A DNA stretch of 28,683 nt from positions 1 through 28,683 of the IMG/VR virus record IMGVR_UViG_3300046028_006282. One strand, given 5' to 3'. The notes under the pieces are model-generated. The model was not told the origin of the DNA. It ran no database searches and saw only the letters and a list, made by a program, of their open reading frames with translations. The stretch comes from a virus. Positions 1 through 20,182 of this stretch are shown one piece after another (positions within the stretch are counted from its first letter, which is position 1; each line of letters opens with the position of its first letter). Made by a program: the position numbers and the translations under genes.

Positions 1-1201
1 AGGATTCTGCAAATAGTTTTCTAACTTCTTCTTTATCCTCGGCTGGTAATACTCGAATGCTTAACCATGTTGGAATATACAATAGGTGCATGTTAATGAT
101 TCCGCCACCAGCTTCCATACCTTCCATAACATTTTGTAAATTAATCTTTTTAAATTTCTGTTGTATTTTCCATTTAGCGAACTCTGGAAGATGTTTTATG
201 TTTAATATCTGTATAGCAGTAGCAATACTAACCTGTATGTTATCCGGAGTGTTATCAAGCCTGTGTAAATTTTTAACTATAGTATCCCATTCGCTAGGGA
301 ACCGAATATAATAATTTCTTTGATCGACAGCATCGATACTGAAACCTACTTTCACTAATTTGAACTGTTTCCAAATTTCTATAATTTCTTCGTCTATTAA
401 TAACCCGTTGGTGTTGTATCTTATAAGAATTTTATCTGCATATCCTTGACGGATAATTTCTTCAAGAAACCATTTGTGTTCACGGATCATTAAAGGTTCG
501 CCGCCAGCAAAATACACTTGTTTTAGATTGGGGATTTGAGCGTACATTTCTTTCCAGAAGTCTGGATTTTCGTGCCATTTATTATTAAACTCTTTCCGAT
601 CCCACGACATTTGATCTTTAAGTTCCTTGGCTTGAAATATCGGATATAACTTTTTATGATCACCGACCCACTGACTGCTATCATGCGGACTGCACATCAC
701 ACATTTTAAATTACAGGTATGTCCTAACCGCAGATCTAGATAAACTAACTTATCAGGCACAGTGCCATCTTCTTCAGTTTGTTTAATTAATTCCGGAACA
801 TCGATACCATCTTCTATCCAAGTTCCAGTTTCCCACATGCGTTTACTAGCCACTCCTTTGCTTTCTTCTTCATAACATTTAGTACAGCTTTTAGGAATAT
901 TACCTTCCAGCATTGTAGTGCGCACAGATTTCATGTAATCATTGTTCCATGCTTCTAAAGGTTTACTATTACCAAAATTGGCTGGTTGCCCTTTTTCATT
1001 CTTAACTAATCCAACTGTATGATCGTTACCTGCACCGCTCGCATTAGCTGAACAACACAATCGCATATCGCCGTTGGGTCGTGTGGCAAAATGTATCCAT
1101 GGCAATACGCAGAACGTGTTGCTACCCGATTGCTCAGTTACTTTACGCTGCCATCTCCCTAACATCGTATCTTCAGGTTGGATCCAAAATACGTTATCCA
1201 T
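1..1201 (-). CDS. Twitch/SPASM-type radical SAM protein (3' end cut by window)
   Basis: Reading from the ATG at 1201 down to base 1, the frame stays open for 400 codons without reaching a stop, so the C-terminus is missing. The N-terminal part carries an auxiliary-cluster-like region: C31 in an FCVLPWIH block, the pair C49-C50 after PNGDMRL, and C106/C109 in CTKCY. It is followed by the radical SAM core motif CNLKCVMC (C163, C167, C170), a GGEP-type SAM-binding motif (FAGGEPLM) and a TNG strand. This order, with twitch-like cysteines before the core, matches what I remember of twitch-domain radical SAM proteins common in marine phage contigs. It overlaps the end of the upstream radical SAM gene by 8 bp, so the two are probably co-transcribed and translationally coupled. 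The substrate is unknown. The family is near certain; the role is not. Confidence 0.9.
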   Translation of the reverse strand, partial: MDNVFWIQPEDTMLGRWQRKVTEQSGSNTFCVLPWIHFATRPNGDMRLCCSANASGAGNDHTVGLVKNEKGQPANFGNSKPLEAWNNDYMKSVRTTMLEGNIPKSCTKCYEEESKGVASKRMWETGTWIEDGIDVPELIKQTEEDGTVPDKLVYLDLRLGHTCNLKCVMCSPHDSSQWVGDHKKLYPIFQAKELKDQMSWDRKEFNNKWHENPDFWKEMYAQIPNLKQVYFAGGEPLMIREHKWFLEEIIRQGYADKILIRYNTNGLLIDEEIIEIWKQFKLVKVGFSIDAVDQRNYYIRFPSEWDTIVKNLHRLDNTPDNIQVSIATAIQILNIKHLPEFAKWKIQQKFKKINLQNVMEGMEAGGGIINMHLLYIPTWLSIRVLPAEDKEEVRKLFAES

Positions 1202-2285
1202 TAAGTGATTCTCTTTCTATAAATTGATCTACGGGTTTTGATAATTCGTTTTTTCCACAGGTTCTTGCACAGGTTATTAATTTTTTAGTTGTCCAATACT
1301 CTGCCCATACTGTCTGATATTCGTAAGAATTTATAATATCTTTAACAGATTTTTCTAAGGCATTAATTGTTCCTAGATCACTGAGTAATTCATTGTATTG
1401 CTGTAATGCGTGTTGTCTTACATTATGGACTACACTATCTACTGTAGAATAGTTGTAAGGGGTAGATGCCAAAAAACAACAAGGCATTAAATTTCTAAAT
1501 GCATCGATATAAACTTCTTTGGTTTTTAATACATAACAATCTATTTCTGTATTTTTAACAATTTCTTCGTAATTTTCAATAATCTTTTTATCTAGAAATT
1601 TTATTACAGTATTTGTAGGGGGTCTCAGAATATCAACAGTATTCCCTACTTTATCGTAGACTTCAAAATTAGTGTCTCCTACGAATCTACTGCTATTCTT
1701 TGTGGTAAATCTTTCAAATCCAATATCTGCGGCAATGTTTTTTGCTTCGTTAATCTGATGCTGATTATGCTCAAATACAATATAGGCCCATTCGGCTCGA
1801 CCCCCTGCCGAAATAAATGCCTGTGCATTTTTTATTATCTTGTCATATTGTGTTCCGATACGATATCGACTGTGTGTATCACTTAACCCGTCGATACCAA
1901 ATATAACCAAATGGTTATCTGGTAGTGATGTAGCTAATTTTTGCCACCAATCAATTCCCCGTAGGCTTCCGTTGGTGTGAATTCTTATAGAAACATTGCT
2001 GTTATCAGTTATATATTGACACATATCTAGAAGATTATCGTTGAGCAACGGATCGCCAAAATTACCGCAGAAGTAAATATGCTCAACTTGATTCAACACT
2101 TCTTGATTGATAATGTGTTTGAAATCCGGTAGAGTCCATTCTTGTATTTTAATCAAAGAGTTCTCTACACCGCCGTGATGATTTCTACTGCACATCGGAC
2201 AACTTGCTTGACAGTTATTGGTGATTTCTAGGTGTATCTGTTTTAGATCTGTAAAAGGAAACATTGCAGAATATTTAGTAAGCAT
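1194..2285 (-). CDS. Radical SAM/SPASM-like enzyme
   Basis: This 363-residue protein has the radical SAM signature CQASCPMC (C25, C29, C32) that ligates the catalytic [4Fe-4S] cluster. A divergent glycine motif (FCGNFGDPLLND) stands where GGEP is usual, and there is an IHTNGS strand. The C-terminal third has further cysteines (DCYV, MPCCF, CARTCGKN) spaced like a SPASM/twitch domain for one or two auxiliary clusters. It is the first gene of a leftward pair with the next radical SAM gene. Its start lies only about 23 bp from the divergent ATG at 2309, leaving almost no room for separate promoters. Family members modify peptides, sugars or nucleosides; the substrate here cannot be read from sequence. 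Confidence 0.9.
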   Translation of the reverse strand: MLTKYSAMFPFTDLKQIHLEITNNCQASCPMCSRNHHGGVENSLIKIQEWTLPDFKHIINQEVLNQVEHIYFCGNFGDPLLNDNLLDMCQYITDNSNVSIRIHTNGSLRGIDWWQKLATSLPDNHLVIFGIDGLSDTHSRYRIGTQYDKIIKNAQAFISAGGRAEWAYIVFEHNQHQINEAKNIAADIGFERFTTKNSSRFVGDTNFEVYDKVGNTVDILRPPTNTVIKFLDKKIIENYEEIVKNTEIDCYVLKTKEVYIDAFRNLMPCCFLASTPYNYSTVDSVVHNVRQHALQQYNELLSDLGTINALEKSVKDIINSYEYQTVWAEYWTTKKLITCARTCGKNELSKPVDQFIERESLNG

Positions 2286-2308
2286 TGAAGTATGCCATAA
2301 ATATCTTT

Positions 2309-2815
2309 ATGAAATATCTAGGCAACTATAAAAATTGGATAAAAGATGAATGGATAGATGCGTTATTATCTAATCAAGGAACTGCTAGACCCTGTGACGG
2401 TAAGCGTCCCGACAGTCCAGAAGAGCAAAGAGAATATGCTAATGCTCGAGCAGCTGGTTATAAGGATTCGGATACCTACTTCTGGATGTTTGATAAAAAC
2501 AATCTGCCTTTTGATTTACCGACTCCCCCATTCATTACTGGCAAATATCACTGGTGGATCACTAAGATGTTACCTGGAAACTTCATGCCAATGCATGTGG
2601 ATCCTCATACCCAGTATGAAAACAACAGTAACAGATATTGGATGCCGTTACAGGATTGGCAGCCCGGACATATTTTCATGTACGAAAATCAAGTGATCAC
2701 TGACTACCTCGCGGGAGATGTATTTGTTTATAACGATCCCACAGCACTTCACGGTGCCGCCAATATCGGTCATGTCCCCCGATTAATATTACAAGTAAGC
2801 ACATATGATCAGTAA
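2309..2815 (+). CDS. 2OG-Fe(II) oxygenase-like (double-stranded beta-helix) protein
   Basis: I chose the ATG at 2309 over the TTG at 2285 because the TTG overlaps the divergent gene's start codon. The product is 168 residues. It shows an iron-binding facial triad: H96 and D98 in MHVDPHT and H148 in ALHGA, with R158 placed to bind the 2-oxoglutarate carboxylate. The surrounding strands (WWITKMLPG, GDVFVYND, LILQVS) fit a double-stranded beta-helix. Such proteins hydroxylate peptides, sugars or lipids using O2, Fe(II) and 2-oxoglutarate. The gene overlaps the next radical SAM gene by 11 bp, so the two proteins may act in one pathway. It could instead be a non-oxygenase cupin, but the HxD...H...R pattern favours an oxygenase. 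Confidence 0.75.
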   Translation: MKYLGNYKNWIKDEWIDALLSNQGTARPCDGKRPDSPEEQREYANARAAGYKDSDTYFWMFDKNNLPFDLPTPPFITGKYHWWITKMLPGNFMPMHVDPHTQYENNSNRYWMPLQDWQPGHIFMYENQVITDYLAGDVFVYNDPTALHGAANIGHVPRLILQVSTYDQ

Positions 2816-4031
2816 CATAGCAATTACCGGTATCAATCAATTCAAACAATCTGCGGTTGATGCTCTACATCAAGCTATTGTAGATGTTGATGGAATTGAA
2901 TTACTACCAACTGTGAGTTTATGCCATCATTGTCACAGTCATGTTCCAGCTTGGCGTTATCATCGAGATAACAAAGTTTATATTGTCAAACACTGTGCTA
3001 CTCACGGTATCAGTCATCACATGATCGAAAGTGACTACGAATTTTATAGTGGTATCTATTATACTCAGGACAATCCTAGATATAATTTCAATGGTGGAGT
3101 ATTGATCGAAGCCAGCGATCGGTGCAATTTAGAATGTCCACATTGTTATCATTTACCAGATAATAAAATCGTAGATCAATCAATTGAAACTCTCCTAGAC
3201 CAAATACGTAAATTACCACTGGGTGTTGATCAGGTAAATCGCATTATATTATCTGGGGCAGAGGCCACACTGCGTCCAGACTTCGCAGAATTGGTCACTT
3301 CTATAAAATCTCTGCATCCTGCTATATCGGTGACTGTTATGACCAATGGCATACAGTTCGGTAATCATGATTTTGTAAAACAAGTCAAGACCTCAGGACT
3401 AGATGGTGTTAACATCGGGTTAAATCATCCCGAATATATCGATCATCATGTGGTTAGACGCAAACAGATTGCTGCCATAGAAAACATGCATATAGAGAAT
3501 ATACCAATAAGTTATATTTCATATACCATGATCAGTCTAGATGAAGTGCATGACATCATGACTGAGATCTGTAGCAATTATTGGCAGGCCAAAAACTTTA
3601 GAATACGCTATGGCAGTGATATTGGCCGCAATCCTGGTCAAGAGCGTATCTTTGTCAGCGATGTTTATAAAGCCATTGAGACTTGGTGTAGGAACAACGA
3701 TAAATCTTTTGATAGAATCATAGAAGCAGACAATAACATCTATCATATCATGGCTCGGATTGAAAATAAAGATATTAGAATCATACAATGGTGTGATGAA
3801 ACTGACATTGACATGGAAGAATTGCGTTCAGGGCCGTGGTGCGATTTCGTTCCTGACGGTGTTACTAACTTCTTACATCAGATTATTCGTAGAGATGTTT
3901 GGAAAAACCAAGGATTAATATTGCCCGATACTCCGCCCGACAGATATAAATTTAATAATAATCCACACAATACTCCGCTGGATCTATTAAATCTATCCTG
4001 GAGTTCCAATAATCATGAACCTCTTGTATAG
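2805..4031 (+). CDS. Radical SAM enzyme with N-terminal CxxC...CxxHG domain (Tes-like architecture)
   Basis: This 408-residue protein has the radical SAM motif CNLECPHC (C107, C111, C114), an LSGAEATLRPD block in place of SGGEPTLRPD, and a VMTNG strand. In front of the core is a cysteine-rich module: C40-x2-C43, then a short beta segment (DNKVYIVK), then C64 and HG at 67-68. This CxxC...DGKVY..K.C..HG layout resembles the N-terminus of tetraether lipid synthase (Tes) and related radical SAM proteins. Extra cysteines near the C-terminus (WCDE, WCDF) may bind another cluster. The start overlaps the oxygenase gene and the 3' end overlaps the convergent methyltransferase by 39 bp. The function is unknown; a lipid or glycolipid substrate is only a guess from architecture. 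Confidence 0.88.
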   Translation: MISNIAITGINQFKQSAVDALHQAIVDVDGIELLPTVSLCHHCHSHVPAWRYHRDNKVYIVKHCATHGISHHMIESDYEFYSGIYYTQDNPRYNFNGGVLIEASDRCNLECPHCYHLPDNKIVDQSIETLLDQIRKLPLGVDQVNRIILSGAEATLRPDFAELVTSIKSLHPAISVTVMTNGIQFGNHDFVKQVKTSGLDGVNIGLNHPEYIDHHVVRRKQIAAIENMHIENIPISYISYTMISLDEVHDIMTEICSNYWQAKNFRIRYGSDIGRNPGQERIFVSDVYKAIETWCRNNDKSFDRIIEADNNIYHIMARIENKDIRIIQWCDETDIDMEELRSGPWCDFVPDGVTNFLHQIIRRDVWKNQGLILPDTPPDRYKFNNNPHNTPLDLLNLSWSSNNHEPLV

Positions 4032-4586
4032 AGGCAATTCTAATTCGCCTGCCCATATCACATTAATGTGACACTGTTGTTTGAATTCTTCTAGACTCTT
4101 TGCTGTTCTAACGTGTTCTGGAATATCATAATTATTACTCTGCAATACCAATAGGCTGTTGTGTGGCATTCCACTTATCCATAGGTCATATTGATCCTGT
4201 GTAATATGTTCGCAACTGGTATTGATGACAACATCTGCGTCACTGCGAATAGCACACATGTCTGCGGTAACTGCTCTGAATCTACCAGCCATATGCTCTA
4301 TTTTGTTTATTGTGTTTGCAATTTCCTCACAGGCCGGGTCAATATCAACACTTCGAATATGAGTGGCTATTATATTTGATTGAAATATCAAACTAGCCAA
4401 TACTCCGTTCCACCCCCCATGAATATCTATAGATACTACCTTATTAATTTGTTTTCTTAGATTTTGAATCAACCAGATTTTACTATTGATCTGCCCTTTC
4501 CAGAAACTTTCTAAAGTTCTGTGTGGATCTGGACTATTCCTAATAGCATCCATCCAAAATAAAATATGGTCAGAATCTAGATTCAT
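3993..4586 (-). CDS. Class I SAM-dependent methyltransferase-like protein
   Basis: This 197-residue protein has a Rossmann-type SAM-binding pattern. Motif I is degenerate (VVSIDIHGGWNGVLAS, about residues 50-65). Motif II, ending a beta strand, is SVDIDPACE (about 79-87). An acidic TADM lies at about 107-110, and a motif IV-like strand VVINTSCEHI at about 119-128. It is short for a full methyltransferase but keeps the core fold. The start codon overlaps the stop of the SGNH gene upstream (ATGA type), so it is the last gene of a three-gene leftward operon with the SGNH protein and a radical SAM enzyme. Its 3' end runs 39 bp into the convergent radical SAM gene. The substrate is unknown. Confidence 0.7.
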   Translation of the reverse strand: MNLDSDHILFWMDAIRNSPDPHRTLESFWKGQINSKIWLIQNLRKQINKVVSIDIHGGWNGVLASLIFQSNIIATHIRSVDIDPACEEIANTINKIEHMAGRFRAVTADMCAIRSDADVVINTSCEHITQDQYDLWISGMPHNSLLVLQSNNYDIPEHVRTAKSLEEFKQQCHINVIWAGELELPLYKRFMIIGTPG

Positions 4587-5335
4587 AATTTTAATTTATC
4601 TGCAATAATTTCAGCAGTGATTTCAGCACTGCGATGACCGGGGTGTGCAACATCTCTACCTTGATCTACATGGCTTAACATGTCGCACTCCAGAGCTTCG
4701 GCTGTAGCTCCAAATGAGCTGGCTTCATAGTATTTGGTTTTATCTTTCCATAATTGTTTGCTGATCAGTTGACACATCAATGCATTAGTTACAGCGTGTG
4801 ACGCATTCTGCGTCCATGCCCGATTATAAGGATCCTCAATATTCCATGATCCGTAATTTATAATATCACCATCTGCAAAATATGTGCATCGATCTAATCC
4901 TGTCCAGAATTGTACCACTGCTTTGGGTGTGGGATAATTTTTATGAAGAATCGCTGAATTGTACAATGAAAACATCATAGACGTTCCGGGAGACCCCATA
5001 TTAACTGCAGGTATACCTGTTTGCCTATAAAATGCTGCATCGATAGTTTCACTGTCATCAAGACCAATTCCAAATACCATTGAGCAACCAAATATTACCA
5101 CGCTTTCACTCCAATTGATTTCTTCAAAAGGTTTGGTTCTATAATATTGAGAATTTAATGTATAGTTAACCGGACGAGTTCGATATCTCCAATCGGAGGG
5201 CTGTATCTTTAAATTTTTTCTAAGAGCAACAAGATCATCAGTTCCCATATATTGACGAGTCAATCCGAGGCTATTAGGCCCTTGAGCTTTAACCAAAAAT
5301 TTATTTTCTTTAATAGATGATACAGTATCGATCAT
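4583..5335 (-). CDS. SGNH/GDSL-type hydrolase-like protein
   Basis: In this 250-residue protein the strand VVIFGCSMVFG at about 79-89 ends in S85 as a GxS nucleophile block (GCS instead of GDS). A second glycine block, NMGSPGTS, lies at about 112-119. Near the C-terminus DVAHPGH supplies the D228-x2-H231 catalytic dyad typical of SGNH block V. No signal peptide is visible. Family members are esterases or acetyl-transfer/removal enzymes, often acting on glycans. The gene is the middle member of a tightly overlapped leftward operon, with 4-bp overlaps on both sides. This fits a late step acting on the product of the neighbouring radical SAM enzyme and methyltransferase, but that is inference. 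Confidence 0.72.
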   Translation of the reverse strand: MIDTVSSIKENKFLVKAQGPNSLGLTRQYMGTDDLVALRKNLKIQPSDWRYRTRPVNYTLNSQYYRTKPFEEINWSESVVIFGCSMVFGIGLDDSETIDAAFYRQTGIPAVNMGSPGTSMMFSLYNSAILHKNYPTPKAVVQFWTGLDRCTYFADGDIINYGSWNIEDPYNRAWTQNASHAVTNALMCQLISKQLWKDKTKYYEASSFGATAEALECDMLSHVDQGRDVAHPGHRSAEITAEIIADKLKL

Positions 5336-6312
5336 TTATTTTTTGGTATCTTAGAATCGGCTGAACTTACACAGCTAGGTGTCACACATATTTTTGGTTC
5401 TGTAAACAAATTAAATCCTTTGTTGAGGGTACCTAGCGGCACATCATGACAACTGTATGATCTCTTAACCTCATTACCTCTTATTATAACACTTTGATAT
5501 CCACTATTGCAACTCCAATGTTGAAATTTATTAAATCCAAAAGCATTAAATCGTTCTGCTTGATCAAATAGATATTCTGTATTGTCTGCATCATATAATG
5601 CAATTTGATAAACATCATCGCCGTTGGCACGTTGTGGAAACCCAGTTTGCATTAAATCGATCATTTCCTCAGTGTAGCCATCTACAATGTTACTGGCTGT
5701 GGGATCACTCTGCGGCTTAAGAGTCACGTTAATTCCACGTTCGTGAAATCTCACACAGCGAGCATACAATTCGTCAAACTTCTCTGGCACCATAACTTGA
5801 TTGATAGTAACATGTACTAGTTCGTACTGCAACTGTAAACACTTGTCGCCAAATTCTTGTTCCTTGGCAAACTCATCATGAAAGCTGGCTGTGATACTAC
5901 GGCGTTGTAACATCTCAGTGTTCTTACACCATGTGTTCCACCATTTGCTACCGGGCGACAAATTAGTAGTCATATGAATACTTTGATATGTACTTTCAGT
6001 TTCATCTAGGTGCTTGACTAGCTCTAGAAGTTGTCGAAAGGCAGTAGGCTCGCCGCCTGAGAAACTCCAATGGAATTCTGTGAATCCATTTTCACGAGCC
6101 TGTCGCTTGATTTCATCTACTGTATTTTTATAAACATCCAAACTTTGGTAATCCTGTTTGTCACTGCGAGCATACGGCCAACAATAGGAACAGTTATAGT
6201 TACAGAAGCGGCCCAAAATCCAACTGGTGGAGAATAGTGGACGGCTCAACATTGTGCGTTGTCCAAAGCGTACGATATCTTGGAATGGAATTTTTTGAAA
6301 ATTGATTGTCAT
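5332..6312 (-). CDS. Radical SAM enzyme with C-terminal cysteine cluster
   Basis: This 326-residue protein carries CNYNCSYC (C37, C41, C44), the SAM-binding FSGGEPTAF motif at about residue 83-91, and a MTTNLSP strand. The C-terminal 65 residues contain WSCNSGY, YSCHD, KICVT and PSCVS cysteines, which look like a SPASM-type auxiliary-cluster region. Substrates known for SPASM enzymes include ribosomal peptides and glycans, but nothing here identifies one. It is the promoter-proximal gene of the leftward operon with the SGNH hydrolase and methyltransferase (4-bp overlap). No clear Shine-Dalgarno precedes the ATG at 6312. The upstream leftward sequence contains a TTAAATAT stretch that might serve as a late-type promoter. 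Confidence 0.9.
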   Translation of the reverse strand: MTINFQKIPFQDIVRFGQRTMLSRPLFSTSWILGRFCNYNCSYCWPYARSDKQDYQSLDVYKNTVDEIKRQARENGFTEFHWSFSGGEPTAFRQLLELVKHLDETESTYQSIHMTTNLSPGSKWWNTWCKNTEMLQRRSITASFHDEFAKEQEFGDKCLQLQYELVHVTINQVMVPEKFDELYARCVRFHERGINVTLKPQSDPTASNIVDGYTEEMIDLMQTGFPQRANGDDVYQIALYDADNTEYLFDQAERFNAFGFNKFQHWSCNSGYQSVIIRGNEVKRSYSCHDVPLGTLNKGFNLFTEPKICVTPSCVSSADSKIPKNK

Positions 6313-6341
6313 AAACTAGTCATATTTAACCGCAAATAAGG

Positions 6342-6370
6342 TTGCGTCTGTAGAAACGAGAGTATATAAT
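6342..6370 (+). promoter_or_regulatory. Sigma70-like promoter of the tRNA-like gene
   Basis: TTGCGT at 6342-6347 and a perfect TATAAT at 6365-6370 are separated by 17 bp. The tRNA-like 5' end at 6377 lies 7 bp after the -10 box, where transcription would be expected to start. The RNA could therefore begin at or very near its mature 5' end. Confidence 0.6.
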
Positions 6371-6376
6371 ATACAT

Positions 6377-6485
6377 GTGGTCGTGAGTGGAATGGCATAC
6401 CTCCAGTCCGTTGTGAAACGCACCAGGGAACGGGGCAACGTCTTAGACACAGCCTTTGTAGGTTCGAATCCTACCGACCACACCA
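6377..6485 (+). tRNA. tRNA-like gene, abnormally long (about 109 nt), isotype unresolved
   Basis: The ends are convincing. A perfect 7-bp acceptor stem pairs GTGGTCG (6377-6383) with CGACCAC (6475-6481), followed by discriminator A and an encoded CCA (6483-6485). The T arm is perfect: GTAGG 6458-6462, loop TTCGAAT, CCTAC 6470-6474. A plausible D loop with the conserved GG lies in 6385-6403 (GAATGGCA). The roughly 54 nt between the D and T arms do not fold into a canonical anticodon arm. The best candidate stem, GTTGTG (6410-6415) with CACAGC (6448-6453), leaves a 32-nt loop. Alternative pairings CCGTT/AACGG and CGTTG/CAACG are also possible. It may be a tRNA carrying an insertion, a degenerate long-arm tRNA, or a tRNA-like RNA that is not used in decoding. 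Confidence 0.62.
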
Positions 6486-6527
6486 ATTACTATTATAAGT
6501 AGTAGAACATAACTTAAGGAAAACATT

Positions 6528-6722
6528 ATGTCAAACACAGTAGAACAATTAAAATCAGCATTTGAAAACTTTCTAGCGGAAGATGCAAAATTTGCCGCTG
6601 GTAACAACGCAGCAGGAACTCGTGCTCGCAAAGCACTTCAAGAAGTTGGAAAAGCAGTTAAAGCTCGTCGTAACGAAATCACAGTAGAAAAGAACGCTCG
6701 TAAAGAAGCCAAGGCAGCTTAA
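6528..6722 (+). CDS. Histone H1-like small basic protein
   Basis: This 64-residue protein is rich in Ala, Lys and Arg. It has a helical N-terminal half (VEQLKSAFENFLAED) followed by a basic segment with RARKAL, KAVKARR and KEAKAA. It resembles the small histone H1-like proteins I remember in marine phage genomes, so nucleic-acid binding or DNA compaction is the likely role. A Shine-Dalgarno-like TAAGGA sits at 6515-6520, 7 bp before the ATG. It starts a rightward operon, with its stop abutting the next start at 6723. Confidence 0.75.
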   Translation: MSNTVEQLKSAFENFLAEDAKFAAGNNAAGTRARKALQEVGKAVKARRNEITVEKNARKEAKAA

Positions 6723-7214
6723 ATGACTGACAGTATCGATTTATCCGACATCGATATAAACATCGGTGGGAGTGGTGGTACCGATACCATCACTCTCGAT
6801 GCTGCAGGTTATCCAAATTATTATACCTCCAGTAACAGCAGTGGACTAACTGTAGGGGGTATTCAAAGTTTTGGGTCAATCACTGTTCCTAATACTATTA
6901 CAACCACTGGCACTACTGGTAATGGATATACACTAGGTTACGGTGCCGGCACCGGTACTTCATGGGTATCGCCAGCTACTCAAGGCTCACTAAAGGTTAC
7001 AGGCGATGCAGACTTTGATGGTGATGTTAAAATTAAAGGTCACAGCATAACTAACCTATTAGAAAAGATCGAAGAACGTTTAGGAATACTAAATCCCAAT
7101 CCTGAATTAGAAGAACGCTGGGACAAATTAAAAGAATTACGTAATCAATATATAGAGATGGAAAAGGATCTTCTTGAAAAAGAGAAGATAATGAAAATTT
7201 TAAAGGAATCATAA
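6723..7214 (+). CDS. Phage structural-type protein with C-terminal coiled coil
   Basis: This 163-residue protein has two parts. The first 95 residues are rich in Gly, Thr and Ser with beta-prone repeats (GGSGGTDTITLD, TTTGTTGNGYTLGYG), as in phage fibre or decoration proteins. A linker, SLKVTGDADFDGDVKIKG, follows and resembles a motif in the structural protein at 11796 (GDLKVTGDV). The last 60 residues (LLEKIEERLGIL to EKDLLEKEKIMKILK) are heptad-like and should form a coiled coil. I recall this organisation from marine T4-like phage contigs, where it is usually left as hypothetical or structural. It is packed between its neighbours with no intergenic bases. The virion location is inference. 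Confidence 0.6.
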   Translation: MTDSIDLSDIDINIGGSGGTDTITLDAAGYPNYYTSSNSSGLTVGGIQSFGSITVPNTITTTGTTGNGYTLGYGAGTGTSWVSPATQGSLKVTGDADFDGDVKIKGHSITNLLEKIEERLGILNPNPELEERWDKLKELRNQYIEMEKDLLEKEKIMKILKES

Positions 7215-12907: not shown

Positions 12908-13756
12908 ATGGCCACACAACAAGAAAAATTAGATAATCTTTCAGCACTGCTTAACGATATCCTTTCTGAAAAAAATCAAGATACCAACATCGTTGAGCTA
13001 TCGTATCTTAAATTCAATGGCGATATCGAAGGCAAAGGATTGATATGGGCAGGTAGAGGACATACCAAACAGTTTGTTTATCAACCTAGTCCTGACAGAT
13101 TCTTTTCATCAGAGACCATTGACCTAGCTAAAGATCGTGCTGTGACTATTAACGGTGTTAAAATCATCGATGACAAAGAGCTAGGAACTTCTATTATCAA
13201 AAGTAGTCTACGAGAAGTTGGTAGGTTACGTGGATTGATAGTCGACGGGTCATTAAGTGTTAATCAATTTTTATATTACAATGCCACATCAGATAGATTA
13301 GGCTTAGGCACTGAAGAACCCAATGCTGCCCTCAGTATCTGCGATCAAGGTGTTGAAATAGTCGTCGGTGCTCGTGAATATAACAAAGCGGGAATAGGCG
13401 TATATAACAGCAGTGATCTAGAACTAATCACAGACAACACTACTAGAATTACTATCAGTGCAGGTGGTAACATTGAATTAGGCAATCGCAACAACGGTCC
13501 TATACAGGTATTAGTTCATGGTACTATGGGCGTTAATGTTGCTACACCAGATCCAAGAACCAATCTACATATAGGCGGCGCTATCAAATTTAACGATACC
13601 CTGCATCTCAAAGGCACACGTCCACCAGAAGGTGGCAGTTTCAAACAGGGTGATATTGTGTGGAATTCAGAACCGCAACAAAGACACTATGTTGGATGGA
13701 TCTGCATTCAATCAGGTAACCCAGGTATCTGGGCACAGTTCGGCGAAATCAGATAA
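12908..13756 (+). CDS. Virion fibre-type structural protein, paralogue 2
   Basis: The ATG at 12908 lies 2 bp past the previous stop and gives 282 residues. It is a shorter tandem paralogue of the preceding gene. It has a short helical N-terminus (EKLDNLSALLNDIL) in place of the 120-residue beta module, then the shared core GLIWAG, TKQFVY, DRFFSSETID, REVGRLRGLIVDGS, RLGLGTEEPNA and WICIQSGNPGIWAQFG. The two probably arose by duplication and then diverged at the N-terminus, which is where phage fibres usually attach to the particle. They may form adjacent parts of one fibre or alternative fibres (inference). Confidence 0.78.
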   Translation: MATQQEKLDNLSALLNDILSEKNQDTNIVELSYLKFNGDIEGKGLIWAGRGHTKQFVYQPSPDRFFSSETIDLAKDRAVTINGVKIIDDKELGTSIIKSSLREVGRLRGLIVDGSLSVNQFLYYNATSDRLGLGTEEPNAALSICDQGVEIVVGAREYNKAGIGVYNSSDLELITDNTTRITISAGGNIELGNRNNGPIQVLVHGTMGVNVATPDPRTNLHIGGAIKFNDTLHLKGTRPPEGGSFKQGDIVWNSEPQQRHYVGWICIQSGNPGIWAQFGEIR

Positions 13757-13757
13757 C

Positions 13758-14369
13758 GTGTCTCAAGCATTAGTCATTGGCAACGGTGAAAGCCGACGCA
13801 ATCTAGATCTAAACTCTCTCAAAATACACAATATTCTTATAGGCTGTAATGCCATACATCGTGATGTCACTGTGGATCATCTCATCTGCTGTGATCGAAG
13901 AATGGTCGAAGAGGCCATACAGAATTCCGATACTGCTAACACAGAAATATATGTTCGAGAAGATTGGTTCAAATATTATAGAAAGATACAAAAACTAAAA
14001 AATATCAAACAGGTTCCTGCACTGCCATATCAAGGTGAAGCCAAACGAGATCAGCCCGAGCATTGGGGCAGTGGTGGATATGCTGTGTTAGTGGCAGCTG
14101 AATTGGGATTTGAAGATATCACTTTAGTGGGGTTTGATCTTTATTCTAAAAACAACAAAGTCAACAATGTCTACAAAGGTACCAACAATTATGCTGCACC
14201 TGATTCACACAGTGTGGATTACAATTATTGGGTCTATCAGATTTCTAAAGTATTCCAACTGTATCCTTCAATACAATTTACAATACTAAATCAATCAGAT
14301 TGGGTATTACCCAGAGAATGGCAACTACCCAACGTTCAATTCAGAAATATTGAGCAATTAGTCTATTGA
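13758..14369 (+). CDS. MptE/DUF115-like protein, possible glycan-related enzyme
   Basis: The start is taken as the GTG at 13758, 1 bp past the previous stop; the longer frame from 13632 only runs through the neighbouring gene. The product is 203 residues. The N-terminus ALVIGNGESRRNLD is a nucleotide-binding-like GxGxS turn, and VDHLICCDRRMV follows. The motifs GSGGYAVLVAAELGFEDITLVGFDLY and NNVYKGTNNY are characteristic of the DUF115/MptE-like group, related to the Maf proteins of flagellin glycosylation. Phage versions are common near fibre genes, so a role in sugar addition to virion proteins is conceivable but unproven. Confidence 0.65.
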   Translation: MSQALVIGNGESRRNLDLNSLKIHNILIGCNAIHRDVTVDHLICCDRRMVEEAIQNSDTANTEIYVREDWFKYYRKIQKLKNIKQVPALPYQGEAKRDQPEHWGSGGYAVLVAAELGFEDITLVGFDLYSKNNKVNNVYKGTNNYAAPDSHSVDYNYWVYQISKVFQLYPSIQFTILNQSDWVLPREWQLPNVQFRNIEQLVY

Positions 14370-14393
14370 CATTAAATACTGTTGTTGTATAAT
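14366..14393 (+). promoter_or_regulatory. Consensus sigma70 promoter upstream of queD, -35 box contains stop codon
   Basis: TTGACA 14366-14371 and TATAAT 14388-14393 are perfect, with a 16-bp spacer. The TGA stop of the DUF115-like gene is bases 2-4 of the -35 box. Transcription should begin near 14400, leaving a leader of about 100 nt before queD. Confidence 0.82.
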
Positions 14394-14418
14394 AGTACAA
14401 TGCACACACACAGGCACT

Positions 14419-14455
14419 GAGAGGACTATATGGCATCATCCCTCTATAAAAATTC
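14419..14455 (+). promoter_or_regulatory. Candidate preQ1-type leader element before queD
   Basis: AGAGG (14420-14424) can pair with CCTCT (14441-14445) and is followed by an A-rich tail, ATAAAAA (14446-14452). The 3' strand and tail, CCCTCTATAAAAA at 14440-14452, match 13 consecutive bases of the Bacillus subtilis queC preQ1-I aptamer as I remember it. That aptamer also has AGAGG on the 5' side. The loop here is about 4 nt longer, and I cannot find a clear pseudoknot partner in TTCTGCAG. This is suggestive, not proven. Confidence 0.35.
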
Positions 14456-14534
14456 TGCAGTCATCAAACTTGCTACTTTTCAAACAAAGGAGACTAGAGA
14501 TGGCAAAATATATTTCAACAAAAACTTACGGTAA
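14430..14534 (+). CDS. Possible leader ORF (34 aa) overlapping queD start
   Basis: The ATG at 14430 is preceded by GAGG (14421-14424) at 5 bp. The frame runs 34 codons and ends 35 bp inside queD in another frame. It has no recognisable motif (starts MASSLYKNSAV). Translating it would disrupt the candidate leader hairpin, so it may be regulatory or fortuitous. Confidence 0.28.
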   Translation: MASSLYKNSAVIKLATFQTKETRDGKIYFNKNLR

Positions 14535-15039
14535 CGAACAAGGGCTTTCATGCTGTTTTAGACAGTGGAGAAGCACACATTCACATTGCTCACTGCTACA
14601 CGGGTATTCTATCGGTGTTCGTGTTCATTTCGAAAGTGAGACCTTAGACGATCGAAATTGGGTCATGGACTTTGGCGGGCTTAAAGCATTTAAGGCATGG
14701 TTAGAACACATGTTCGATCATACTTTAGTGATTGCAGAGGACGATCCTTATCTGTCACAATTCAAAGATATGGCAGCATTAGGATTACAAGATCAAGGTG
14801 GTATTTGTGATCTTAGAATTGTTCCAGCAGTCGGCTGCGAAAAATTCTCAGAATTAGCATTTAACACTCTAGACGAAATTATTAAAACCTATCAAGCAGG
14901 TCAAACGTGGCATCTTAAAAATGATAAAGGCGGCACTTTGAAAACCTTTGAATGTCGATATCCCGTAGGACAAGGTGTTAAACTACGTTCTGTAGAAGTA
15001 TTTGAACACGGTGCTAACTCAGCGATTTACGAAAGATAA
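14500..15039 (+). CDS. queD: QueD-like 6-carboxytetrahydropterin synthase / PTPS family
   Basis: The start is the ATG at 14500, chosen for its excellent AAAGGAG site (14486-14492, 7-bp spacing) over the in-frame codon at 14470. The product is 179 residues. It matches the PTPS/QueD fold: HSHCSLLHGYS (C30 in the catalytic position, H34), a VMDFGGLK strand-helix, FDHTLVI (D73, H74) and a CEKFSE segment replacing the usual PTSEN with its glutamate. QueD makes 6-carboxy-tetrahydropterin for preQ0 and queuosine, used for tRNA and sometimes phage DNA modification. The third zinc histidine of HGHS is Tyr36 here (HGYS), which may alter metal binding or specificity. No other queuosine gene is in the window. 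Confidence 0.82.
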   Translation: MAKYISTKTYGNEQGLSCCFRQWRSTHSHCSLLHGYSIGVRVHFESETLDDRNWVMDFGGLKAFKAWLEHMFDHTLVIAEDDPYLSQFKDMAALGLQDQGGICDLRIVPAVGCEKFSELAFNTLDEIIKTYQAGQTWHLKNDKGGTLKTFECRYPVGQGVKLRSVEVFEHGANSAIYER

Positions 15040-15044
15040 TTAAA

Positions 15045-15194
15045 TTGTGGCGTTTATGGGCGAAAGCCCTAGGTGAAAAAGTAGGCAGCACGGATCGAGA
15101 AGCCGACCGTGTTGCTGTAATACGTACAGTGATAGTGGGCGTTTACATCATTACTAATCTTTTTATTATTGCTGGTGTTATTAGACATTGGTAA
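15045..15194 (+). CDS. Small single-pass membrane protein (49 aa)
   Basis: From the TTG at 15045 the frame encodes 49 residues: an aromatic/basic start (WRLWAKALGEKVG), a charged middle (TDREADRVAVIR), and a membrane-length hydrophobic stretch (VIVGVYIITNLFIIAGVI) ending RHW. I recall very similar small proteins in marine phages beginning WRLWAKALGEK, which supports it being a real gene. The function is unknown; the topology suggests inner-membrane insertion with the N-terminus in the cytoplasm. It lies 5 bp after queD and is easily missed because it lacks an ATG. Confidence 0.7.
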   Translation: MWRLWAKALGEKVGSTDREADRVAVIRTVIVGVYIITNLFIIAGVIRHW

Positions 15195-15241
15195 ATAATT
15201 CATGAAAAAATTTAATGTACACAATTAAGAGATAGATTACA

Positions 15242-15865
15242 ATGATTTTAGAAATTGACAATTTATTAGATAGTGCAACTGCTGATAGTATTGAGAATTT
15301 TATGTTATCTATAGATTTTAATTGGGTATATATAAAATCAATATCAGGACCCTGTGTCAATGATGAGGCAGTGGCTAATGATCCTAAAATTAAAGAATCT
15401 GACGGATTTATGCATATATTTGTAGATAATAAACAACTAGTATGTCCACATGCTGGAATTATTCGTTCATTAATAAGTGCAATGGAACAACGTACTGCTA
15501 AGACAGTAAAAGAAGTCGAACGTTCAAGGGCTGTATTATTGTATAAAAACCCAACCTTTGGAGATTTTTATCAGGGTCCTCATACAGATTATGCCAACCC
15601 TCACATGGTCATGATATACTATGTAAGTGATAGCGACGGCGATACAATATTTTTTAATGAGAAACATACTGGAACGATCGATAATAGCAAAAAGACTATT
15701 AGTCAACGAATAACTCCTAAAAAAAATAAATGTATTATATTTGATGGATTACAATATCATGCTGGGAGTGTTCCCAAAAACTCTCACAGGATGTTTATTA
15801 ATATTAATTTTTGTTTTGAACAGGATAACAAAGCTGATAATAAATATCCCTATGCATACATTTAA
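15242..15865 (+). CDS. 2OG-Fe(II) oxygenase, prolyl 4-hydroxylase-like
   Basis: This 207-residue protein has a clear iron triad: H114 and D116 in GPHTDYANP, and H173 in [13 protein letters not shown]183 is placed to bind 2-oxoglutarate, and flanking strands ([26 protein letters not shown]) complete the double-stranded beta-helix. It resembles the prolyl 4-hydroxylase-type oxygenases frequent in marine phages. The substrate may be a protein side chain or a small metabolite; sequence does not say. It overlaps kdsA by 14 bp, so it belongs to the same rightward operon. Confidence 0.87.
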
Positions 15866-16685
15866 TATCGGCAGAGTTGTTGCCAACAATAACAATAAAA
15901 TTTTCCTAATAGCAGGCCCTTGCCAGATCGAAAGTCAAGATCATGCCGAATTCACTGCTGGCTCTATCAAAGAAATCTGCGATGAGTTAGACATTGATCT
16001 AATTTATAAAAGCAGTTTTGATAAGGCCAATAGATCCAGTATTGGAACACAGCGTGGCATTGGTATTGATGAAGGTCTAAAAATCTTAAATTCTATCAAA
16101 CACGAATTTGGAATTCCTGTACTCACTGATATACACGAGGCTTATCAAGCACAGTTATCAGCAGACGCTGGTATTGATATATTACAAATACCAGCATTCT
16201 TATGCCGACAAACTGATCTATTATTAGCAGCAGGTGCTACAGGGTGCGCAGTAAATGTCAAGAAAGGGCAGTTCCTTGCACCCCATGATATGAAAAATGT
16301 TGCGGCAAAGATCGCTTCAACCGGTAATACTCGTATTATGTTATGTGAAAGAGGTTATACTCACGGATACAATAATCTTGTGGTTGATATGCGCAGTCTA
16401 CCTATTATGGCAGACACTGGGTATCCCGTGATATTTGATTGCACACATTCTGTTCAACAGCCTGGTGGATTAGGATCAACGTCAGGCGGGGATCGCAAAA
16501 TGGTTCCTTATTTGGCTAGAGCAGCGGTAGCCACAGGATGTCTAGCAGGTGTGTTTATTGAAACACACGAAGATCCAGATAACGCACCTTCAGACGGTCC
16601 GAATATGATACCACTGCACGAACTCAAAGATTTACTTCAAGACCTAGTAGGCATCGATGGATACATTAAAAAACCAAGAAACTAA
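15852..16685 (+). CDS. kdsA: 3-deoxy-D-manno-octulosonate-8-phosphate synthase (KDO-8-P synthase)
   Basis: The start is the ATG at 15852 (MHTFNIG); the longer frame from 15741 only overlaps the oxygenase gene. The product is 277 residues, normal for KdsA. Hallmarks are [57 protein letters not shown] and [10 protein letters not shown]24, H199, E237 and D248 occupy the metal-ligand positions of the metal-dependent class, whereas the E. coli enzyme has Asn in place of the Cys. It condenses arabinose-5-phosphate with phosphoenolpyruvate to make KDO-8-P, the precursor of the inner-core LPS sugar. The adjoining glycosyltransferase supports a role in surface or virion glycans. Confidence 0.94.
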
Positions 16686-17463
16686 ACAACAAAGGAAACT
16701 TCGCAAAGCACTGTTGAAATCGGAAAAAGAAAATCAACAGGCTTTAGATAATATTGATCCCAATGTTAAGATTACTGTGCTATGTGTTCGCTTTGGTCAC
16801 AAATATGGCAGAGAGTATGTAGAAAGATTGCGTAACATGGTCTCGCGACATATGACCATACCCTACGAGTTTGTGTGTCTCACAGATGATCAACATCCAA
16901 TCACCGGTGTTCGTAGTATCGTACAGCCTAACGCAAACTACGCTCGCGGTTGGTGGCATAAGGTTCATATGTTTGATCCTAATATTCCACTAGCTGGGCG
17001 CATCTTATATTTTGATTTAGATGTTGTAATACATGCCAACATTGATAAACTCGCAGGATATCTCACCACAGAATTTGTAGGTATACATGATTTCAATAGA
17101 AAATTCCATGCCAATTGGAAATATCTCAACAGCAGTGTGTTAGCTTGGAATCACGGAAGCCAAACTGATATTTGGAATCAGTTCAAAACCAATCCCAGAG
17201 AAGCACAACGCCTAGCTGGTGATCAAGATTGGATTTGGAAACTGTGCAGAGATAAAATCAAATTTTGGCCTAGAGAATGGATACAGAGCTACAAGTGGGA
17301 AATGCGCAGCCGAGAAGAACTGACTTTGATCAATGGCAAACGGCAGTTCACTAATGTGCGTAATGATGTAGTCGTTGAGCACGGATGCTCTGTCGCTGTG
17401 TTTCACGGTGACCCAAATCCCTGTGCCGTACAAGATAAATTTGTTCTTGACAACTGGCGCTAA
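16657..17463 (+). CDS. GT-A type glycosyltransferase
   Basis: This 268-residue protein overlaps kdsA by 29 bp. After a charged N-terminal helix it begins a GT-A Rossmann strand ([13 protein letters not shown]). The DxD metal/nucleotide-sugar motif is D120-L-D122 in [11 protein letters not shown]. Downstream, [17 protein letters not shown] and VFHGDPNP correspond to the acceptor-side and C-terminal His-Gly motifs seen in GT8-like enzymes. No membrane segment is visible. Its substrate is unknown. Coupling to KdsA hints at KDO-containing or LPS-core-like acceptors, but common cotranscription does not prove a common pathway. Confidence 0.78.
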
Positions 17464-18726: not shown

Positions 18727-19287
18727 ATGACGCTACATTTTATTAAAAGTTTAACAGAAACCAAAGACAATCTAGAAATTCGGCAGGACAAGCTGAAATT
18801 CCCCAAAGATGCTTTAGATCCTGTAATGAGCGAAGCCACTATTAAATATCACTTCGATGGATTAGCCAGCAAGTATTTTGATCGTTATAATGCAGGAGAA
18901 GGTGACGCAGATTTTAACTACGGCGGTGCTATGCTGCACAATATTTGGTTTTCAAATCTCACTCCGCCCGTAGCTGCTAATAAGCCTCAAGGACTCAGCC
19001 TAGATCTTATAGATTCCAAATACACTAGTTTCGATAAATTCAAAGAAGAGTTTGAAAAAACTGCTATGTCAATTCAAGGCAGCGGTTGGATATATATGGA
19101 TAAGTCGGGTGAAATCCGAACTATTCGCAATCACGAATACAAAAAGAACATGAAGATTGCACTGTTGATCGATTGGTGGGAGCATGCATGGGCACTGGAT
19201 TATCAGCAGGACAAAGCCAAATATCTACAGAATATTTGGCGAATCATTGATTGGGAAACTGTTAACATTAGACTACAAGGAGAATGA
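18727..19287 (+). CDS. Fe/Mn-family superoxide dismutase (divergent)
   Basis: This 186-residue protein keeps the four metal ligands of the Fe/Mn-SOD family: H42 in KYHFDG, H71 in AMLHNIWF, and D149 and H153 in DWWEHAWALDY. Tyr50 is in the second-shell Tyr position. The usual second His pair of the first helix (KHHxTY) is replaced by GLASKY. Glutamine Q117 in IQGSGW is the Mn-SOD type position, and the Fe-type Gln before NH is absent, so manganese or cambialistic use is more likely. It converts superoxide to peroxide and oxygen. Placement near iscU/iscA suggests protection of iron-sulfur enzymes. No signal peptide is seen, so it is cytoplasmic. Confidence 0.88.
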   Translation: MTLHFIKSLTETKDNLEIRQDKLKFPKDALDPVMSEATIKYHFDGLASKYFDRYNAGEGDADFNYGGAMLHNIWFSNLTPPVAANKPQGLSLDLIDSKYTSFDKFKEEFEKTAMSIQGSGWIYMDKSGEIRTIRNHEYKKNMKIALLIDWWEHAWALDYQQDKAKYLQNIWRIIDWETVNIRLQGE

Positions 19288-19289
19288 CT

Positions 19290-19406
19290 ATGTTAGAAAC
19301 ATTATTTTGGTTAGCACTAGGAGCATTTGTAGGGTGGAATTTTCCACAACCTGAATTTGCCAAAGGAATTCAAGCAAAAGTATTAGGATTCTTTAAGAAA
19401 GGATAA
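19290..19406 (+). CDS. Small membrane-anchored protein (38 aa)
   Basis: The ATG at 19290 has an AAGGAG site (19278-19283) inside the end of the SOD gene. The product starts with a hydrophobic helix (LETLFWLALGAFVGW), then WNFPQPEFAKG and a basic end, GFFKKG. I recall similar short proteins with GAFVGW and FPQP in marine phages. It is probably inserted in the inner membrane. The function is unknown. Confidence 0.68.
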   Translation: MLETLFWLALGAFVGWNFPQPEFAKGIQAKVLGFFKKG

Positions 19407-19412
19407 TCCATC

Positions 19413-19487
19413 ATGGCTAAATTTAAAGCACACCATCCAAGGTCTATCAAAGCCACTGCTAGACGTGTAATTAGGAAGAAAAAGTAA
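19413..19487 (+). CDS. Very small basic peptide (24 aa)
   Basis: The ATG at 19413 follows AGGA about 10 bp upstream and encodes 24 residues, half of them Lys, Arg or His, ending RRVIRKKK. It fills the gap between two genes with 6 bp before and 1 bp after. Composition is like that of nucleic-acid-binding peptides. It could be fortuitous, but the tight packing favours a gene. Confidence 0.45.
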   Translation: MAKFKAHHPRSIKATARRVIRKKK

Positions 19488-19488
19488 A

Positions 19489-19878
19489 ATGGCATATTCA
19501 GACAAAGTGTTAGACCATTACGAAAACCCTCGTAATGTGGGTTCATTTGCCAAAGATGATCTCACAGTGGGCACAGGTATGGTAGGTGCTCCTGCCTGTG
19601 GTGATGTGATGAAATTGCAGATCAAAGTCAACAATGAAGGCATTATAGAAGATGCGAAGTTTAAGACCTATGGTTGCGGCAGTGCTATTGCTAGCTCTAG
19701 TCTCTGTACAGAATGGCTCAAGGGCAAGACACTTGACCAGGCAGGTACTATCAAGAACTCAGATATCGCTACAGAACTGGCGTTACCGCCCGTTAAAATC
19801 CACTGTTCGGTTCTTGCAGAAGATGCGATTAAAGCAGCGATAAAAGATTATCAAACCAAACATGATCTCGTTAACTGA
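19489..19878 (+). CDS. iscU: Fe-S cluster scaffold protein IscU
   Basis: This 129-residue protein is full length. It has all active-site residues at the same positions as E. coli IscU: C37 and D39 in GAPACGDV, C63 in TYGCGSA, and H105-C106 in [17 protein letters not shown]. The LPPVK segment is the HscA chaperone recognition motif. IscU accepts sulfur from IscS and iron to build [2Fe-2S] and [4Fe-4S] clusters. No iscS, hscA or fdx is present in the window, so host partners would be needed. It overlaps iscA by 17 bp. The intact LPPVK motif implies it can engage the host HscA/HscB. Confidence 0.96.
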
Positions 19879-20182
19879 ACTAGCCGCAGAAAAAGTTAAA
19901 ACCCAGCTAGAGCGTAGGGGAAAAGGACTAGGCATTCGTGTAGCCGTTAAAACTACCGGATGCTCAGGGCTTTCTTACGTTATGGAATATGTAGATGTAC
20001 CCTTGCCGGAAGACATGAGTTTTGTTAGCCGCAACGTACATGTATTTGTAGATCCTAAGAGCCTGGTTTATGTTGATGGAGTTGAAATGGATTGGGTTCG
20101 CAATGGACTCAATGAGGGATTTGATTTTAAAAATCCCAATGAAAAAGCTCGCTGTGGATGCGGCGAGAGCTTTACAGTTTAA
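19862..20182 (+). CDS. iscA: A-type Fe-S carrier protein (IscA/ErpA/HesB family)
   Basis: This 106-residue protein has the three conserved cysteines of A-type carriers: C34 in TTGCSGLSY and C98 and C100 in RCGCGESF. The usual LTxxAAxxVK N-terminus and NPN before the Cys pair are also present. It receives clusters from IscU and delivers them, especially [4Fe-4S], to apo-enzymes. It is translationally coupled to iscU (17-bp overlap). HesB-like carriers are known from marine phages; their pairing with a full IscU is less usual. I cannot separate IscA, ErpA and SufA by sequence alone. Confidence 0.95.

Follow-up and report, generated by a model that had tools for sequence, protein, structure and literature searches.

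Clusters of radical S-adenosylmethionine (rSAM) enzymes have been described in several T4-related phages, and in this work they are compared with a cluster in a fragment of a freshwater virus of bacteria, IMG/VR record IMGVR_UViG_3300046028_006282 (G000), whose whole length of 28,683 bases is called the window below. Seven open reading frames (ORFs) occupy positions 2-6312 of the window, encoding four unlike rSAM proteins (RSAM1 to RSAM4), a 2-oxoglutarate (2OG) oxygenase-like protein, a methyltransferase (MT) and an SGNH-hydrolase-like protein. The Campylobacter phages CP220 and CPt10 (Firehammervirus, T4-related) carry 11 and 12 rSAMs, of which five form an exchangeable cluster together with a putative amidinotransferase, and CP220 also has two nucleotide-diphospho-sugar transferase genes in its rSAM cluster (PMC2853527). 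The T4-like marine viral genome TARA_ERS488813_N000010 combines 12 rSAMs with Fe-S assembly genes, according to an excerpt of PMC5332604, and pelagimyophages hold rSAM cassettes in a hypervariable region related to lipopolysaccharide (PMC7029224).

With CP220 and CPt10 the window shares the T4-related background, the many rSAMs and the exchangeable cluster, but identity between the rSAMs of these phages and those of the window is only about 24-32%. Furthermore, searches with RSAM1 and MT found no Campylobacter phage match, and the quartet of RSAM4, MT, RSAM2 and RSAM1, which is the subject of this work, is therefore unrecognisable in these two phages. The TARA genome resembles the window in having many rSAMs and Fe-S assembly genes in a T4-like phage; the excerpt describes no quartet, bacterial counterpart or gene context for the T4-like marine genomes. 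Pelagibacter phage Mosig EXVC030M encodes MoaA-like rSAMs together with a distant MT, two Asp_Arg_Hydrox proteins, aminotransferases and an epimerase, but identity is 27% for this MT and 26% for an RSAM2-like protein, and no close RSAM4 or RSAM1 was found in it. Phage modules rich in rSAMs are already known. What appears from these comparisons to be new is the quartet, its counterpart in Bdellovibrionota and the conserved tRNA-like element that borders the island, none of which we found described in the open-licence papers searched.

We read the region, with a probability of roughly 45%, as a hypervariable phage island with a glycan or glycoconjugate tailoring pathway. The virus probably uses these enzymes to synthesise or decorate an unusual sugar or glycoconjugate at a surface, because the four genes are nearly always found together and because they lie beside sugar-transfer genes in Bdellovibrio-like bacteria.

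Core quartet and variable genes

Six viral scans gave 195 distinct contigs, which were chosen by the proteins themselves and many of which are short. Among the 153 contigs with RSAM4, MT is present in 151 (directly after RSAM4 in 70), RSAM2 in 110 and RSAM1 in 86, as against 28 for the 2OG family, 24 for SGNH and 21 for RSAM3. Because of this choice and the shortness of many contigs, co-occurrence was retested on a sample picked by the tRNA-like element. Where the contig covered at least 2.5 kb of island, MT was found in 37 of 37 contigs with RSAM4 and in 0 of 11 without it (p 4e-11), the groups without RSAM4 being small; where it covered at least 6 kb, RSAM2 was found in 19/19 and RSAM1 in 16/19 of the contigs with RSAM4. 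The element-chosen sample therefore marks the quartet as one inherited unit and the other three window genes as variable. As these counts show, the conserved core is RSAM4, MT, RSAM2 and RSAM1, with RSAM3, 2OG and SGNH as variable extras. The earlier note had taken all seven genes as a set, with the four rSAMs more likely catalysing successive steps, and had proposed a co-occurrence check: the quartet recurs together, while a single seven-gene pathway does not stand, as three of its members are in a minority of RSAM4 contigs.

Related islands hold further tailoring genes, i.e. a tryptophan halogenase, a dehydroquinate (DHQ)-synthase-like cyclase, aminotransferases, a sulfotransferase and PP-loop enzymes. 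These differ among islands, and the accessory chemistry therefore varies between phages around a fixed core. The tryptophan-halogenase gene was seen at 2480-4096 of contig L105 (PF04820, 311 bits). Two small genes were also noted. A gene resembling that of translation initiation factor IF-1 is found at 2490-2708 of L236 and in 17 other related phage contigs, and a conserved protein of about 60 amino acids is encoded directly before RSAM1 or RSAM2 (L080 7167-7367, L236 8956-9138 and 5508-5702 of the merged contig L168), its family being found in 13 contigs.

The seven genes form three short overlapping units, as the earlier note had them: a leftward pair in which RSAM2 (1194-2285, minus strand) precedes RSAM1 (2-1201, minus) with an overlap of 8 nt, a rightward pair of 2OG (2285-2815, plus) and RSAM3 (2805-4031, plus) with an overlap of 11 nt, and a leftward trio of RSAM4 (5332-6312, minus), the first gene of the island, SGNH (4583-5335, minus) and MT (3993-4586, minus) with two overlaps of 4 nt each. 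RSAM3 and MT are convergent. All seven ORFs are in place, and PF04055 is above its cut-off in four of them, RSAM1 (motif CNLKCVMC), RSAM2 (CQASCPMC), RSAM3 (CNLECPHC) and RSAM4 (CNYNCSYC).

The cluster is not confined to the 6.3 kb that the note had described. A 16-kb IMG/VR contig includes L112, which matches positions 4-6866 of the window at 99.96% identity and continues leftward past the window edge with four more rSAMs, giving 8 rSAMs in about 11 kb. This leftward part holds full-length RSAM1 (L112 5668-7080), RSAM5, RSAM6, RSAM7 and RSAM8, the last being a second rSAM of the twitch type. Further genes in L112 are a second methyltransferase-like gene, three more oxygenase-like genes (two match Pfam Asp_Arg_Hydrox, one of these under cut-off), two of unassigned kind and a GNAT-like gene, where names lacking a Pfam match were read from the sequence. 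This overlap shows that the rSAM set is not accidental and that the window covers only part of it. RSAM6 (L112 8047-9049) is split by a frameshift into 237 and 109 amino acids, which is either an assembly error or real.

Of the 470 amino acids of RSAM1, 400 fall inside the window, whose start truncates the gene. RSAM1 matches PF04055 and PF13186; with 369.3 bits it exceeds the curated cut-off of 170 of NF033640, the rSAM family with an N-terminal SPASM/twitch domain. RSAM2 (PF04055 37.5 bits; phrog_21308) has SPASM-like cysteines at its C-terminus, where Cys 250, 269, 339 and 343 are invariant in 18 relatives, as are C25/29/32. RSAM4 (PF04055 43.9 bits), which has at least 598 relatives in IMG/VR, carries a C-terminal auxiliary domain with four cysteines (268, 288, 309 and 314) that do not vary among 10 phage relatives. 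It scored 38.8 bits against the STM4011-family model NF038073 (curated cut-off 200), and the nearest PDB folds of its model (pLDDT 92) are MoaA and the peptide epimerase EpeE. Although MoaA is its nearest fold, all four rSAMs reach at most 46 bits against the MoaA model TIGR02666, where the cut-off is 284.

RSAM3 carries an N-terminal zinc ribbon of the HMPTM type (PF23545, 48.4 bits against a cut-off of 27) followed by the rSAM core (PF04055, 53.7 against 29.5). The ribbon and a PDB match to Tes/GDGT-MAS (7tol, E 1e-14) liken it to Tes/HMPTM-type rSAMs, but its score of 65.1 bits is far from the cut-off of 450 of the Tes family NF045702, and TrsS NF045646 gave 78.9 against 490. The search against rSAM subgroup models that had been proposed thus placed RSAM1 and RSAM3 by domain, and left the NF038073, Tes, TrsS and MoaA families below their cut-offs. 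The four rSAMs are, by these matches, of different architectures and not recent copies of one another, since one has an N-terminal twitch domain, one a zinc ribbon and two have distinct C-terminal cysteine sets; the differing auxiliary cysteines had been recognised before.

MT (IHGGWNG...SVDIDP) has a class I methyltransferase fold. The top structural neighbours of its model (pLDDT 96) are class I methyltransferases and nicotianamine synthase (E about 1e-9), and a sequence search of the PDB gave no match. Function names for RSAM4 and MT taken from structure were rejected, as MoaA, EpeE and many class I methyltransferases are too generic. The 2OG protein resembles Asp/Asn beta-hydroxylases, PF05118 giving 17.7 bits, under the cut-off of 22.6, with the HxD...H motif present (H104-x-D, H156...R). 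Its TTG start at 2285 is questionable; in frame, the first ATG lies at 2309. The SGNH protein had no match in Pfam, NCBIfam or PHROG, and its motifs (GCSM...GSPG...HPGH) were read from the sequence.

The tRNA-like element (6377-6485, plus strand) is 109 nt long and lies in the 215-bp gap between RSAM4 and a histone H1-like Hc1 gene, at the boundary of the island and the structural module. It has a 7-bp acceptor stem, a T-arm and an encoded CCA, with no canonical anticodon arm; in the window copy a hairpin closed by GUGA is found. ARAGORN did not call the element, and the Rfam tRNA model gave 26.5 bits (gathering cut-off 29). Among the fetched loci there are 78 distinct copies, and the acceptor and T stems are paired in 63 of 63 distinct copies with compensatory changes, e.g. 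U-A to A-U and G-C to A-U. In an independent pattern scan the neighbour on the island side was RSAM4 in 55 of the 73 loci not ending there. On this recurrence, the element marks the island edge. The H1-like gene (6528-6722, plus strand; PF07432) is kept beside the island in 55 related contigs. In L357 and L408 the element has a stretch in common with ordinary tRNA genes.

Counterpart of the quartet in bacteria

When 84,980 species genomes were scanned with an RSAM4 alignment, 23 loci were obtained. Eighteen, with RSAM4 at 45-59% identity, were counted as Bdellovibrionota metagenome-assembled genomes (MAGs) or near kin (L241-L248, L250, L252-L258, L261 and L262), including L244, which is titled only 'bacterium' and was counted since it grouped with Bdellovibrionota in the RSAM4 tree. 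L249, L251, L259, L260 and L263 were excluded from the Bdellovibrionota counts. L263 probably represents a phage contig that ended up in a bacterial MAG through binning, as its ThyX is 68% identical to the phage family, and the other four may not be chromosomal.

In most loci RSAM2 and RSAM1 adjoin RSAM4, and MT is also present in 10 of the 23 within the fetched stretch; most of the longer Bdellovibrionota loci have RSAM2, RSAM1 and MT alongside. Several bacterial loci hold up to about 10 rSAMs in 21 kb. Unlike the phage islands, these loci are chromosomal, as indicated by contigs of up to 936 kb (among L241-L262) and by neighbours such as the seryl-tRNA-synthetase-like gene and tRNA-Ser in L246. 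They also differ in their glycosyltransferases and in having no tRNA-like element: the element model gave a single match below E 0.01 on the bacterial loci, the normal tRNA-Ser of L246.

Within 291 genomes of one phylum (that of G005), RSAM4 is found in 17, MT in 17/17 of these and in 10/274 of the others (Fisher p 6e-21). RSAM1 orthologues of at least 600 bits are present in 15/17 of the RSAM4 genomes and in 0/274 of the others, the next best match having 398 bits. As the genomes are interrelated, the p value overstates their independence, and the complete nesting is the stronger point. These counts show that the quartet is inherited together in bacteria as it is in phages, which bears out in part the earlier suggestion that the enzymes act as a set.

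All 15 Bdellovibrionota loci longer than 10 kb hold a GT2 or a glycosyltransferase-like (GT-like) gene (GT2 in 8 loci, GT-like in 9), and the three of 18 with neither are contigs under 6 kb. The gene content thus shows a glycosyltransferase context for the bacterial quartet. The GT-like family, together with a pyridoxal phosphate (PLP)-fold family, is common to bacterial loci and phage islands. GT2 genes with long repetitive C-terminal tails were seen beside the quartet at 10823-13368 of L255 and at about 12000-14200 of L261.

In the RSAM4 tree the freshwater phages form one well-supported clade which groups with Bdellovibrionota (support 93, below the starred level), and marine sequences, some probably viral, fall outside this group. 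One exchange between phages and Bdellovibrionota would suffice to account for the tree, which fixes no direction.

Competing readings of the product

Under the glycan or glycoconjugate reading, the region would form the margin of a hypervariable island of biosynthetic genes in a T4-like phage from fresh water, with a core homologous to the chromosomal quartet of Bdellovibrionota. The substrate of the quartet would be a sugar, or one linked to an amino acid or a lipid, tailored through radical C-H chemistry; candidate steps are oxidation, epimerisation, deoxygenation or C-methylation, and MT would add a methylation. The 2OG oxygenase may hydroxylate and the SGNH protein acylate or deacylate the sugar, which glycosyltransferases would attach, remodelling the host surface or the virion during infection. 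The window itself holds a KdsA-like DAHP_synth_1 enzyme, a sialyltransferase-like gene and a glycosyltransferase-like gene, which speak for this reading. As for nucleotide-sugar and assembly enzymes, epimerase-like and UDP-Glc-dehydrogenase-like genes are found occasionally, and no flippase or polymerase was recognised.

Several points weigh against it. No genes for export or polymerisation were identified. The phage islands hold fewer clear glycosyltransferases than the bacterial loci. The GT-like family, a weak glycosyltransferase match, has no Pfam match above cut-off, and therefore only the 8/18 loci with a clear GT2 (PF00535) are firm. Moreover, the nearest folds of RSAM4 include EpeE besides MoaA, the best-known SPASM/twitch rSAMs work on peptides, and proteins are frequent substrates of Asp/Asn-hydroxylase-like oxygenases.

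The last three points lead to the main rival, a possible though less probable one, in which the enzymes modify a peptide or protein, i.e. either a product like the ribosomally synthesised and post-translationally modified peptides (RiPPs) encoded elsewhere, or tail-fibre or other virion proteins made beside the island. The tryptophan halogenase of related islands and the large tail-fibre genes of the window would also fit. However, the neighbourhood of the core genes in phage and bacterial loci yielded no conserved small ORF divided into leader and core, no PqqD-type RiPP recognition element (RRE) was matched at E 0.01 in RSAM1-4, and the constant bacterial neighbours are glycosyltransferases, not precursors. 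Clustering of the small ORFs (20-120 amino acids) gave no family with a variable core; the families seen were read-through of the tRNA-like element, the H1-like, AbrB-like and IF-1-like proteins and the conserved 60-residue protein. A repetitive peptide beside MT in both L255 and L258 resembled a precursor with several cores and was rejected: by analogy with L261 and L255, it is better read as a repetitive C-terminal GT2 tail. The earlier note had seen no RiPP precursor either, and had held a glycan to be as plausible as a peptide. The bacterial gene context and the absence of a precursor family and of an RRE now moderately favour a glycan or glycoconjugate, short of proof.

Production of a small diffusible compound (a nucleoside, a cyclitol or something aminoglycoside-like) that aids the phage against host or competitors is rather unlikely. 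The DHQ-synthase-like cyclase, DegT/StrS and class III aminotransferases, sulfotransferase and tryptophan halogenase of related islands, and an amidinotransferase-like family there not confirmed by Pfam, speak for such a product, but only a minority of the islands have these accessories, neither the window nor L112 has a recognised one, and no resistance or export gene was identified. Less likely still is that the seven genes are unrelated auxiliary genes gathered in a variable region of the phage; RSAM3, SGNH and 2OG do vary widely among islands, but the near-perfect co-occurrence of the quartet in two independent samples refutes this for the quartet. Hypermodification of phage DNA bases, a pathway type in which rSAMs sometimes act and which QueD and ThyX in the window might suggest, is very improbable and is rejected as the main reading because the same quartet lies on bacterial chromosomes beside glycosyltransferases, and the window families include no base-hypermodification kinase, glycosylase or transferase.

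Other window genes and significance

The window was taken to be from a phage on the basis of its large tail-fibre genes, one with a T4 gp9/10-like N-terminus, and of a conserved 392-residue protein with relatives in Caulobacter phage Cr30, in Sinorhizobium and Stenotrophomonas phages and in PA5oct-type phages. From the same genes we infer that the phage is T4-like; neither a capsid gene nor a terminase gene was identified in the window.

Genes for an Fe/Mn superoxide dismutase (SodB, 18727-19287, plus strand; PF02777 82.9 bits) and for IscU (NifU_N) and IscA-type Fe-S assembly proteins (19489-20182, plus strand; PF01592 179 bits, PF01521 62.9 bits) are adjacent (18727-20182) and lie beside the very large tail-fibre gene with the T4 gp9/10-like N-terminus. 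It is plausible that they answer a need for Fe-S clusters under oxygen, where IscU and IscA would supply and SodB would protect the clusters of the rSAMs. IscU was found in no other RSAM4 contig of at least 15 kb in the clustered set and is therefore not part of the unit. A run at 13632-17463 encodes a sialyltransferase/MptE-like protein, QueD, a 2OG-type oxygenase, a KdsA-like enzyme of the DAHP-synthase family and a glycosyltransferase-like protein, possibly a second surface-modification set.

A more specific proposal, which we regard as tentative, is that a four-gene rSAM/MT pathway not described before and native to surface-glycan loci of Bdellovibrionota was acquired by an abundant lineage of freshwater T4-like phages, where it would anchor a large and exchangeable island and make a new radical-tailored glycoconjugate altering the host or virion surface. 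Phages rich in rSAMs have been noted since 2010 without an assigned function. A fixed four-gene core in abundant freshwater phages and on bacterial chromosomes makes this function testable in bacteria, without the uncultured phage. Should a surface glycan be the product, this would represent new chemistry for remodelling of the surface by phages, and possibly for recognition between predator and prey.

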